DNA from: Bryobacterales bacterium F-183
Lineage (GTDB): Bacteria; Acidobacteriota; Terriglobia; Bryobacterales; Bryobacteraceae
Direction of reading: 5' to 3'
Assembly (NCBI GenBank): GCA_016865505.2
Contig: AP025252.1
Location: 4,858,137-4,922,136, forward strand
Length of the DNA stretch: 64,000 nucleotides
The position numbers were made by a program, and so were the translations under genes. This document shows, piece by piece, positions 42,052-45,243 of this stretch; within the stretch, counting starts at the first letter, position 1; every line of letters begins with the position of its first letter. The notes below the pieces were generated by a model. The model had not been told where the DNA came from. It did not search any database and was given only the letters and a program-made list of their open reading frames with translations.

Positions 42052-42471
42052 CTAATGTACGGGCGGGCCGATCCATTGCACTTCCAGGATGGCAGACATC
42101 GCGCGAAGTTCTGGATCGCCGGTTACCACCGGAGCGCGATTTGCCATGCCTAGAGCGGCGACAAACGCGTCAGCGTAGGAGATGCGCCACTGCGCTTTGA
42201 GTTTTGCCGCTGCCACGAAATCATCTGGAGTCGGCGCAATGAGGCGAATCGGAAGGTCAGGGAGTAGCTTGAGCAACTCTTCTGCGGCCTCACGAGAAAT
42301 TTTGCGACTTGCCATGTAGTACGCTTCGCCGACGTTCACCCAACTCATCAGGATGGTGGGCTCAGGGCTTGCCATGGATTCGTCAAGCATGGCATCTACG
42401 ATAGATGCGGACGGCTCGTTTCGAAGCCAGGCGAGAAGCGGATACGAGTCAAAGATTCGCAATCCGCTCAT
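42052..42471 (-). CDS. vapC: VapC-like PIN-domain toxin
   Basis: 139 aa. The acidic quartet of PIN ribonucleases is present: Asp8 (FDSYPLL), Glu49 (NVGEAYY), Asp101 (SYADAFVAAL) and Asp119 (TGDPEL). Such toxins cut tRNA or rRNA when freed from their antitoxin. The start overlaps the end of the antitoxin gene by 23 nt. All four catalytic positions are intact, so it is likely functional. A homologous pair is not seen elsewhere in the window. Confidence 0.88.
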   Translation of the reverse strand: MSGLRIFDSYPLLAWLRNEPSASIVDAMLDESMASPEPTILMSWVNVGEAYYMASRKISREAAEELLKLLPDLPIRLIAPTPDDFVAAAKLKAQWRISYADAFVAALGMANRAPVVTGDPELRAMSAILEVQWIGPPVH

Positions 42472-42703
42472 CGTCTTTGGCTAGTTCCTTGGCGTGTTCT
42501 CGCGCCAACTCGTTCAGAAGGTCCGGAGTGCCGCTGAAGATCCCGCGATAACGCTTCCATTTGGGCAGGTCGGATTGGCGCTTAATCACCAACTGATCGC
42601 CGACAACGGTCGCGGACAGACTTGTACCCGGCTGCCAATCCAACTCCTTTTGGAGAGTTTCTGGGATTGTTACGGTCCCAGAAGTGCCGAGCTTCAGTTC
42701 CAT
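42449..42703 (-). CDS. vapB: VapB-like antitoxin with AbrB/SpoVT N-terminus
   Basis: 84 aa. MELKLGTSGTVTIPETL, then PGTSLSATVVGDQLVIK is a swapped-hairpin AbrB DNA-binding domain, used in antitoxins that repress their own operon. The C-terminal half (WKRYRGIFSG, LAREHAKELAKDDERI) is helical and should wrap the toxin. It starts 9 nt after the hisS stop, so transcription may run through from hisG/hisS; a promoter of its own may lie inside hisS. Confidence 0.85.
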   Translation of the reverse strand: MELKLGTSGTVTIPETLQKELDWQPGTSLSATVVGDQLVIKRQSDLPKWKRYRGIFSGTPDLLNELAREHAKELAKDDERIANL

Positions 42704-42712
42704 ACTTCAACC

Positions 42713-44176
42713 TTATCCGAGAATGCCCTTTACCGTGGCCACCAACTCGTCGAGGCCTACGGTGACCTGACCAGTCTTGCCCTGCTTGCGGAACTCTTCG
42801 CGATCGCCTACTGCGGCGCGGGCTTGTAGGCCAGCTTGCAGGTCCTTTACCGATGCCTGCTGCTTTTCCATTTCGTCCGGACCGATGATGACGGCTACCG
42901 GTACTTCACGGATGTTGGCGAGCGAGAGTTGGTCCTTCATCTTAGCGTTGGGTTCGCCGAAGTAGACTTCCGTGCGGATATCCGCTTGGCGAAGCATCGA
43001 GGCGACCTTCAACAGGTACGGCGCGGGAACTCCGGGGAAGGAGATCACCATTGCTTGCACCAGGGTCGGCGAGGTTTCCATTAGCTTCAGGCGGCGGAGG
43101 GCTGCGGAGAAGCGGTCGAGGCCGAAGGAGGCACCTACGGCTGGGATAGATTTCTCGAGGAACCGATCGACCAGGTTGTCGTAGCGGCCACCGCCGATGA
43201 CGGCCCCAATGTCGGGCGCGTCGGCGAGGTAGGCTTCGAAGATCGGGCCCGTGTAGTAGGCGAGACCGCGGGCGAGGGAGACGTCGAAGATCGCGTCCTG
43301 TTCGCTGACGCCGAGGCTGGTGAGAGCTGCATCGAGTTCGCGCATCTCCTGCAGGGCGGCGTTGCAGACATCGTCCTTCGGGAGCTTGGCAGTGGCGTTT
43401 TCCACCACGTGGCCGCGCGAGGTACCGGTGATGGCGATGAGGTCGAGGAGCTTGTCGATGGCTTCCTTTTCGAGACCAACACCAGGGATCTTGCTGCCAG
43501 AGGAATCGATGCGGCCTCCAGCGAGTTCGCGACGCACGTCCTCATCACCGATCTTCTGCAACTTGTCGACGACGCGGAGAACATGACGCTGCTTCTCAAC
43601 TGTAGTGACGCCGGCGGAGGAGAGCATCGCCTCGAGCAGCTTGCGGTTGTTGACGTGGATGGTGAAGTTCCGCTTGTCGGCGGAGTTCGCAAGGCCGACG
43701 GCGCGGAAGATGTCCGACATGACGGCGACGATTTCGGCGTCGACGGCCACGAGGTTGGAGCCTGCGGCGTCAAAGTCGAACTGGCGGAACTGGCGGAAGC
43801 GGCCTTCTTCCGGCTTGTCGTTGCGGAATACGGGCGCAAGCTGGTAGCGGCGGAAGGGCAGGCGGAGTTGTTCCGGATACTGGGCCAGAAGGCGCGCGAA
43901 GGGTACCGTCAGGTCGTAGCGCAGGCCGACGTTCTCGCCTTCCTTGCTCTTGAACCGGATGATCTCTTTTTCTGCTTCTTCACCGCTGGTGCCGAGCAGG
44001 GTGGTGAGGAATTCCACTGCCGGGGTGTCGAGCGGGACAAAACCGTAGCTTTCGAGGACCTTGCGGATCTTTTCGATGAGGGGTCCCTGAAAGATCATCT
44101 CCTCCGGCAGAATGTCGCGGTAGCCCCGCAGAGTCTGTGGTTCGACCAAAGCACGGCCGTTCGTGTCAGTTGACAT
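42713..44176 (-). CDS. hisS: Histidyl-tRNA synthetase, eukaryote-like type
   Basis: 487 aa from MSTDTNG at 44176, longer than the E. coli enzyme (424) and closer to eukaryotic length. Instead of the common bacterial LRPEGTA motif it has LRYDLTVPFARLLA (about residues 85-98), as in eukaryotes. Motif 2 reads YQLAPVFRNDKPEEGRFRQF and continues RQFDFDAAG; the DFD-x-AG ending is eukaryote-like, where E. coli has LGCEVFG. HisA motif LARGLAYYTGPIFEA is present, with the C-terminal anticodon domain. An upstream in-frame GTG at 44266 lies within the tRNA gene and is rejected. The gene is 47 nt downstream of tRNA-His and 152 nt from hisG on the same strand. The C-terminal extension beyond the usual end has TVGLDELVATVKGIL. 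Confidence 0.95.
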   Translation of the reverse strand: MSTDTNGRALVEPQTLRGYRDILPEEMIFQGPLIEKIRKVLESYGFVPLDTPAVEFLTTLLGTSGEEAEKEIIRFKSKEGENVGLRYDLTVPFARLLAQYPEQLRLPFRRYQLAPVFRNDKPEEGRFRQFRQFDFDAAGSNLVAVDAEIVAVMSDIFRAVGLANSADKRNFTIHVNNRKLLEAMLSSAGVTTVEKQRHVLRVVDKLQKIGDEDVRRELAGGRIDSSGSKIPGVGLEKEAIDKLLDLIAITGTSRGHVVENATAKLPKDDVCNAALQEMRELDAALTSLGVSEQDAIFDVSLARGLAYYTGPIFEAYLADAPDIGAVIGGGRYDNLVDRFLEKSIPAVGASFGLDRFSAALRRLKLMETSPTLVQAMVISFPGVPAPYLLKVASMLRQADIRTEVYFGEPNAKMKDQLSLANIREVPVAVIIGPDEMEKQQASVKDLQAGLQARAAVGDREEFRKQGKTGQVTVGLDELVATVKGILG

Positions 44177-44223
44177 CGTAAAGGTCCTTATTGATGTTTT
44201 GGGAGAGGGAGAAGAAGGAGAAA

Positions 44224-44300
44224 TGGTTCCGGGAGAGGGGGTCGAACCCACGGCCTCCTGATCCACAATCAGGCGCTCTAACCAACTGAGCTATCCCGGA
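44224..44300 (-). tRNA. tRNA-His (anticodon GTG), A73, no encoded G-1
   Basis: 77 nt with encoded CCA. Acceptor TCCGGGA/TCCCGGA, then T8 A9, D arm GCTC/GAGC, anticodon stem CCTGA/TCAGG around TTGTGGA (anticodon GTG at loop positions 3-5), variable loop AGGCC, T arm GTGGG-TTCGACC-CCCTC, discriminator A73, CCA. The base before position 1 is T, not G. Nearly all bacterial tRNA-His have G-1 paired with C73, the main HisRS identity element; here the discriminator is A. The T stem has a U50-U64 mismatch. It lies between hisG (28 nt upstream) and hisS (47 nt downstream), all on the same strand. Confidence 0.95.
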
Positions 44301-44328
44301 ACACAGGGCAAACAGCGATGACTGCTGG

Positions 44329-45243
44329 TTACTCATACAGTATACCAACAGGATTGGTTGTAATTCTATCCGCACCCGCTTTTGCGAGCTTGGGAATGAG
44401 GTCGCGCGCTTCGAGCTTGGTGAGCACCATGTCGATGATGCCGCCGCCGTCTTTGGCCGGGGATACGGTGCACTTGACCTCGGCGGGGATGAGCTTCATC
44501 AGGACCTCGAGTTCATTGGGTCCAGCGATGACGCGCATGCTTTCCTTGGTGTCGGCACGGAGGCAGGCTTCGAGCAACAGGGCGATGCTGTCGAGTTTGG
44601 CACGGCGCCAGTCGTTGGCGGCGTACACGGACTTGCGGGCGAAGAAGCGGGTGGAAGACGTATAAACGGTGTCGAGGATCTTGAGGCCGTTGGCCTGTAG
44701 AGAGGCACCGGTTTCGGTAGCTTCGACGATCGCGTCGGCGAATTCGCCTACTTTGGCTTCGGTGGCGCCCCAGGAGAAGGCAACTTTGGCGTTGATTCCC
44801 TTCTCTCCCAGCCAGCGCTCCGTAATGGAGACGAGTTCGGTTGAGATGCGGACGTTCTCTGCGGTCTGGAGGTCGCGGAGAGTGGAGAACGGGCCGTCCT
44901 TCTTCACCGCGAGCACCCAACGGATATTGCGGAAGGTGCGTTTGGAGTAGCAGAGGTCGGCGAGCATGACGAAGTCATCTTCGGTGACGCCGGTCTGATG
45001 GTTCTCGATACTTTCGCTGATCCAGTCCCAGCCCGAGAGTCCGCAATCGAGCGAACCGTCGGCGACGTACTGAGGGATCTCTTGCGGCCGGAGGAGCACA
45101 GGCTTCAACTCCGGGTCGTTCGAGCTGAGCCAGAGCGAACGCTCCGACCCGTGAAAGTTGTATCCCGCCCGTGTAAACAGCGAGAGTGTGGATTCCTGCA
45201 GGCTCCCTTTCGGGATCCCGATGCGTATCTGCTCCTGGCTCAT
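44329..45243 (-). CDS. hisG: ATP phosphoribosyltransferase (long form, HisGL)
   Basis: 304 aa; first step of histidine synthesis (ATP + PRPP to phosphoribosyl-ATP). Conserved blocks are RIGIPKGSLQESTL, GLSGWDWISESIEN, RISTELVSITERWL, WGATEAKVGEFADAIVEATETGASLQANGLKIL (split here only for reading), where ATETGASL is the PRPP loop. The last about 80 residues form the ACT-like regulatory domain of the long form, giving histidine feedback. No other his operon gene is here; instead tRNA-His and hisS follow at once, giving a compact histidine supply-and-charging cluster. Confidence 0.95.
   Translation of the reverse strand: MSQEQIRIGIPKGSLQESTLSLFTRAGYNFHGSERSLWLSSNDPELKPVLLRPQEIPQYVADGSLDCGLSGWDWISESIENHQTGVTEDDFVMLADLCYSKRTFRNIRWVLAVKKDGPFSTLRDLQTAENVRISTELVSITERWLGEKGINAKVAFSWGATEAKVGEFADAIVEATETGASLQANGLKILDTVYTSSTRFFARKSVYAANDWRRAKLDSIALLLEACLRADTKESMRVIAGPNELEVLMKLIPAEVKCTVSPAKDGGGIIDMVLTKLEARDLIPKLAKAGADRITTNPVGILYE

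Follow-up and report, generated by a model that had tools for sequence, protein, structure and literature searches.

How does a bacterium come to use a histidine identity rule that the rest of its family does not share? The question is raised by three adjacent genes in the window (the whole 64 kb stretch of DNA analysed here), where a tRNA-His with A73 and without G-1 lies between hisG and hisS on one strand. The features are as follows.

42713–44176, minus strand: hisS, histidine–tRNA ligase of the A73 clade, motif 2 loop KPEEGR (TIGR00442, 355.5 bits over the cut-off; PF13393; tree)
44224–44300, minus strand: tRNA-His(GTG), U1:A72, A73, encoded CCA, T at -1 (ARAGORN)
44329–45243, minus strand: hisG, ATP phosphoribosyltransferase (TIGR00070, PF01634; 43% identity to family hisG)

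The locus and its place in the genome

A single tRNA gene, tRNA-His(GTG), was found in the window by ARAGORN; this result and the sequence itself confirmed the position, the A73, the missing G-1 and the placement between hisG and hisS that had been given by the sequence-only reading. The register of the gene (U1, A72, A73, T-1) is fixed because CCA is encoded. The tRNA gene follows the end of hisG after 28 nt and is separated by 47 nt from the start of hisS, the ATG of which (44176) is preceded by AAGGA. The HisRS fold family PF13393 and an anticodon-binding domain were found in the hisS product; LRYDLTVPFARLLA and KPEEGRFRQFRQFDFDAAG are both present in it, as had been reported earlier, and the two-residue motif 2 insert of eukaryotic HisRS is absent. 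The GC and GC3 of hisS are similar to those of the adjoining genes and thus give no composition sign of recent import. Downstream of hisS lie a MazE-type antitoxin gene, a PIN-domain gene and the gene for citrate synthase, as well as a putative seryl-tRNA synthetase-like gene named from its sequence alone.

The genome (6.28 Mb in four contigs, 98.6% complete) contains 46 tRNA genes (RF00005), and the anticodon was read in all 46. One of them is tRNA-His; the second tRNA-His with G-1/C73 that the sequence-only reading had named as evidence against itself was not found. One HisRS match was obtained at E ≤ 0.01 in the whole genome, and a whole-genome search for Thg1 (PF04446) gave no match at E ≤ 0.1. 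The T at -1 of the window tRNA-His could pair with A73. It does not stand out as a special trait of this tRNA, as T-1 together with A73 is present in 17 of the 46 tRNAs of the source genome.

Two or three adjacent genes with foreign affinity might result from an assembly artefact or from contamination. These genes lie, however, inside a 6.18 Mb contig, are similar in GC to their neighbours and are those without which the genome would have neither HisRS nor tRNA-His. The one congener examined (G356, 91% complete), a second species of the genus, moreover has the same HisRS (97% identity over residues 389–487) with the same genes behind it. An artefact is hardly conceivable in the light of these observations. 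No tRNA-His was found in the congener, the contig of which stops within hisS and is hence uninformative on the tRNA.

The A73-type HisRS clade and its tRNA-His

In a search of 60 other genera of the family (one genome per genus), all 60 gave only weak matches to the window HisRS, at 26–34% identity. All 29 family sequences that were read whole have a loop of the RPQKGR or RPQKGRF type, together with LRPE in 28 and MRPE in one. On these sequence comparisons, the window HisRS is foreign to its family. The same HisRS class was present in ten other genomes of a 297-genome sample of the phylum, drawn from the 29 best other matches. The highest identity of the window HisRS to any relative seen was 53–54%, and it sits on a long branch.

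In a tree of 91 rows (51 of 142 HisRS sequences having been omitted as near-duplicates or surplus) the A73-type HisRS formed one clade of 48 rows with a support of 100/99 (99 in a quick tree). Its members come from Alphaproteobacteria, Acidobacteriota, Hydrogenedentota, Planctomycetota, Zixibacteria, Bacteroidota and others, the phylum labels of the other rows being as deposited, mostly for MAGs, so that some may be wrong. A 100/100 branch separates the window HisRS from the LRPE/RPQKGR enzymes of the family, and the window HisRS groups with five Hydrogenedentota sequences and one Nitrospiraceae MAG (100/100; highest identity 53%). Inside the A73 clade, the branching order of the subclades has poor support (97/42). 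Placement with the ordinary family enzymes, which the sequence-only reading had accepted in advance as contrary evidence, was not seen in the tree. An AU test, for which 43 of the 91 tree rows were omitted to leave 48, did not reject a join of the window HisRS with two family HisRS (p = 0.081); this is a weak result, because with an outgroup of two rows the join mainly shifts the root and tests little.

Since ten further genomes in the phylum sample carry the A73 class, the pair might date far back in Acidobacteriota, with retention here and loss in the rest of the family. The other Acidobacteriota of this class sit in a different subclade, however, while the window HisRS is nearest to Hydrogenedentota. 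A join of the window with the subclade of the other Acidobacteriota was rejected (p-AU = 9.6e-5; 48 rows, simpler model), and vertical retention would need a loss in 60 of 60 sampled sister genera. Retention since the early history of the phylum is thus very improbable.

The enzyme had also been described as eukaryote-like and set in an alphaproteobacterial frame, and neither description could be kept. Human HARS, the sole eukaryotic row and a long branch, was placed among the C73-type bacterial HisRS, and its join with the A73 clade was rejected (p-AU = 0.015; 48 rows, simpler model). LRYDLT also occurs in non-clade genomes with a G-1/C73 tRNA-His, e.g. G004, G090 and G230, and was rejected as a marker of A73; the term `eukaryote-like' misleads for both of these reasons. 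The alphaproteobacterial frame is too narrow for a system which spans several phyla and in which the nearest enzymes to that of the window are from Hydrogenedentota. According to PMC5370408, a HisRS transfer from eukaryotes to Alphaproteobacteria likewise found no support in a later study.

It is the motif 2 loop, and not LRYDLT, that tracks the tRNA type. The clade pattern for this loop is K-P-(mostly G or D)-x-G-R, compared with R-P-Q-K-G-R in ordinary bacterial HisRS. Each of the 66 clade sequences has Lys and, directly after it, Pro or Leu, and none has the Gln118-type Gln; the next residue is Gly in 46, Asp in 15, Ala in two, Glu in one (the window), Met in one and Leu in one. The residue at the corresponding Gln site was scored in 75 of 76 non-clade sequences as Gln (66), Ala (eight) or Lys (one), and it is Gln in the remaining sequence, L136.

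The tRNA-His gene was sought in 54 clade genomes (the source genome, ten of the 297, and those of 36 of 41 and 7 of 27 further loci); no gene was obtained for L100, L101 and L152. The 51 genes found have A73 in 50 cases, G73 in one (L133, Phenylobacterium) and C73 in none; a cautious count for A73 is 48 of 49, as L094 and L097 probably duplicate G039 and G259 (HisRS 100% identical). Position 72 is U in 48 of the 51 genomes, A in the window and G in L129 and L151. Among the clade pairs, U1:A72 and the motif 2 Glu were seen in that of the window alone. The base at -1, read in 43 clade tRNA-His genes, is T in 35, A in three, C in two and G in three (L172, L249 and L252), the last being an encoded G-1 opposite A73. 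Outside the clade, C73 was present in all 19 genomes in which the gene was found (25 queried), and all 30 non-clade phylum loci read whole (L174–L203) have G-1, G1:C72 and C73, as do the two native family tRNA-His genes that were read (G171 and G261). A search with a C/G/T73 pattern found nothing in the source genome; among the ten other clade genomes in the phylum sample it gave a single match, in G066, to a gene that does not end in C. The patterns were strict (that for A73 missed the genes of G028, G039 and G259, which were recovered through linkage), and the tRNA counts for the phylum are lower bounds because many of the 297 genomes gave no match with either pattern. G102 carries, in addition to a C73 gene, an A73 tRNA-His with G-1 and G1:C72 that forms part of a tRNA array.

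Origin of the pair and of hisG

The synthetase gene alone could have been transferred, the native tRNA-His then mutating to match it. A synthetase-only transfer model was published for Alphaproteobacteria (Ardell and Andersson 2006, via the part of PMC3937112 available), and U1:A72 shows that the window tRNA has changed in place. The remainder of the tRNA points in another direction. With positions 1, 72 and 73 and the anticodon excluded, it has a mean identity of 77.1% (maximum 86.8%) to 42 A73 tRNAs, compared with 62.1% (maximum 76.5%) to 43 C73 tRNAs and 66.2% to the two native family tRNAs. The split into A73 and C73 persists in a tree of 85 tRNAs calculated without positions 1, 72 and 73, where it corresponds to one branch (97/92; bootstrap not settled), and in its acceptor arm the window tRNA departs from the Hydrogenedentota tRNA L251 at positions 1 and 72 only. 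The two tRNA trees were built from 74 and 71 columns, with 15 tRNA entries that were duplicates from repeated retrieval or had been misread (as was the start of L257) left out of both and L166 (an odd tRNA-array gene) left out of the second; most of the C73 rows represent a section of a single phylum, and they include zero alphaproteobacterial C73 tRNAs, which makes the test of co-transfer incomplete for Alphaproteobacteria. Co-adapted positions beyond 1, 72 and 73 could contribute to the A73/C73 split. Since the tRNA bodies split in the same way as the enzymes, the window tRNA-His very probably came together with its HisRS; transfer of the synthetase gene alone is improbable. Joint arrival of the altered synthetase and its matching A73 tRNA, as proposed by the sequence-only reading, is thus the most likely course on the basis of the identities, the tRNA and HisRS trees and the survey of the family.

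Apart from the window, 65 clade loci were compared, five of them with less than 400 nt of upstream sequence; in 20 of the 65, a tRNA-His gene precedes hisS at a distance of no more than 300 nt. Linkage was seen in 14 of 23 loci in the subclade of most Acidobacteriota (in L093 on the opposite strand) and in 6 of 13 in the non-alphaproteobacterial part of the second subclade, and in none of the 23 alphaproteobacterial and none of the six Hydrogenedentota-subclade loci. G235, with tRNA-His about 1.6 kb upstream of hisS, was left out of this count. No tRNA-His was found within up to 1.5 kb on each side of hisS in 29 family loci and 19 non-clade loci of the phylum. As none of the six nearest relatives is linked, either the sample lacks the direct donor or the linkage was re-established.

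It had further been proposed that hisG, tRNA-His and hisS moved as one cassette. hisG adjoins the pair on the same strand, and its product has a mean identity of 43.0% (maximum 44.8%) to 29 family HisG, among which the identities are 66.5–87.2%; with an identity so far below that of the family, hisG is also foreign-looking or else strongly diverged. Its C-terminal domain is weak (PF08029 below the cut-off). A joint move of all three genes is nevertheless unlikely. No hisG was found in front of the tRNA–hisS pair in any of the 65 other clade loci (available flanks, E ≤ 1e-8), so that the order hisG–tRNA–hisS was seen in the window only; hisG lies downstream of hisS, a different order, in 18 of the 23 alphaproteobacterial loci. 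The single Hydrogenedentota HisG found (G362) is 22% identical to that of the window, from a search that covered roughly 1.2 of the 3.5 Mb of G362 and 0.2 of the 4.2 Mb of G357, and Hydrogenedentota were rejected as hisG donor on these partly read genomes. The three-gene cassette is therefore not supported as a conserved unit, and hisG is treated as a neighbour of the pair, not as a demonstrated member of a mobile unit.

The preferred reading, with a probability of roughly 0.85 assigned from the sequence comparisons, is that the ordinary HisRS and the G-1/C73 tRNA-His were lost from this genome, and probably from its genus too, and that the present genes are a matched pair of foreign origin, to which Candidatus Hydrogenedentota is the closest lineage sampled. 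Later in the lineage, the usual G1.U72 would have changed to U1:A72 and the usual loop Gly/Asp to Glu. Processing of a hisG–tRNA–hisS transcript would release the hisS message, RNase P would trim the tRNA leader to position 1 and HisRS would charge its tRNA via the anticodon, A73 and the 1:72 end. Several observations count against this reading. U72, a Caulobacter determinant (according to the accessible part of PMC9976931), is replaced by A72; the nearest relatives are unlinked (none of six), share no more than 53–54% identity and are separated from the window by a long branch, while GC and GC3 are unmarked; the AU test with two outgroup rows gave p = 0.081; G-1 occurs in 3 of 43 clade tRNAs; and there is no tRNA-His from the congener.

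Comparison with known systems and significance

The A73 pair of Caulobacter crescentus and its alphaproteobacterial relatives shares with the window pair the HisRS clade (100/99), A73, the lack of G-1 and the loop Lys-Pro. It has U72 and a loop Gly (Gly123; PMC3937112, in part), whereas the window pair has A72 and Glu; tRNA-His and hisS are adjacent in the window and in none of 23 alphaproteobacterial loci, and the enzymes nearest to that of the window are those of Hydrogenedentota. In the sections available of the respective papers, the Caulobacter pair is reported to be orthogonal to that of E. coli (PMC3875453), its identity elements in vitro are given as A73, U72 and the anticodon (PMC9976931), and A73 is termed a minor element (PMC5370408). 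By analogy, the window HisRS is inferred to work like the Caulobacter enzyme and yet to accept U1:A72; our guess would be that the loop Glu lets it do so.

The linked pairs of other Acidobacteriota, Zixibacteria, Planctomycetota and Bacteroidota resemble that of the window in clade, in A73 and in having tRNA-His directly upstream of hisS, but belong to another subclade, have G1.U72 or C1:G72 and a loop Gly, Asp, Met or Leu, and were not seen to be preceded by hisG. Canonical bacterial HisRS and tRNA-His share PF13393, the anticodon-binding domain and the GTG anticodon with the window pair, which differs in having no G-1, no C73 and no RPQKGR and in lying on the opposite side of a 100/100 branch. 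A73 and LRYDLTVPFAR are shared with the eukaryotic system, in which G-1 is added by Thg1; no Thg1 was found in the window genome, and human HARS falls outside the clade. A foreign identity rule in bacteria is likewise represented by the archaeal-type TyrRS and TrpRS with their tRNA identities in CPR bacteria (from the portion of PMC5370408 available), although there the amino acids are others and the source is archaeal.

Co-transfer of tRNA-His and HisRS into SAR11 has already been discussed by Wang et al. (PMC3937112, available in part), and the idea of co-transfer is therefore not new. The literature searches gave no report of the A73 rule outside Alphaproteobacteria and SAR11; Ardell and Andersson 2006, Wang 2007 and Yuan 2011 were covered through citing papers. 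What appears to be new, in that it was not found in print, is a multi-phylum and often physically linked system with sequence evidence of one shared history.

The HisRS/tRNA pairs form a natural series (A73/U72, A73/A72, A73/G72 and G73/U72) of which the mutual orthogonality is testable and which might serve genetic code engineering. Variants within it are U1:A72 with Glu in the window, C1:G72 with a KLxPGR loop in Bacteroidota and G73 in one Phenylobacterium. It is rather likely that the A73 (mostly U72) histidine identity is a transferable module of tRNA-His and hisS, often adjacent, that has replaced G-1:C73 in one step in several phyla and has evolved after transfer; Alphaproteobacteria would then be one recipient and not an oddity of eukaryotic origin. 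Transfer as a linked pair would explain the passage of a recipient from one rule to another that is incompatible with it, because neither partner must work with the native one. The apparent replacement of the native pair in this bacterium suggests that a rule of translation can be exchanged between distantly related bacteria in the form of two linked genes.

Structure and surroundings of the window hisS locus

Inspection of the window tRNA-His (44224-44300) by eye showed that its T stem contains a U50·U64 mismatch. Immediately behind hisS lie two genes that are likely to form a toxin-antitoxin pair:

42052-42703, PIN-domain gene and MazE-type antitoxin gene

The congener (G356, locus L289) likewise carries a PIN-gene homologue behind its hisS. 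The HisG of the Hydrogenedentota genome G362 is strongly divergent; it scored 37.4 bits, below the NCBIfam cut-off of 75.75, and exceeded the Pfam cut-off:

L393, 12444-13463, HisG

Positions -1 and 73 in Buchananbacteria and G102

Two Buchananbacteria loci carry a tRNA-His gene just downstream of hisS in which C73 is combined with the absence of G-1:

L140, 5416-5492, tRNA-His with C73 and C at -1
L155, 5411-5487, tRNA-His with C73 and C at -1

A second tRNA-His in the genome of L155 has both G-1 and C73. Genome G102 contains an array of 12 tRNA genes within 3 kb (L166), perhaps carried by a mobile element, that includes an extra tRNA-His with G-1, G1:C72 and A73; a C73 tRNA-His gene lies outside this array.

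Variants of the A73 rule within the clade

The tRNA-His of a Phenylobacterium MAG (L282, from the same genome as L133) has U72 and G73, and this G73 is an additional discriminator change within the clade. In two Bacteroidota MAGs the tRNA-His linked to hisS has C1:G72 and A73:

L129, 3834-3908, tRNA-His
L151, 3842-3916, tRNA-His

The HisRS loop in these MAGs reads KLLPGR or KLMPGR, and together the tRNA and synthetase constitute a further variant of the histidine identity rule.
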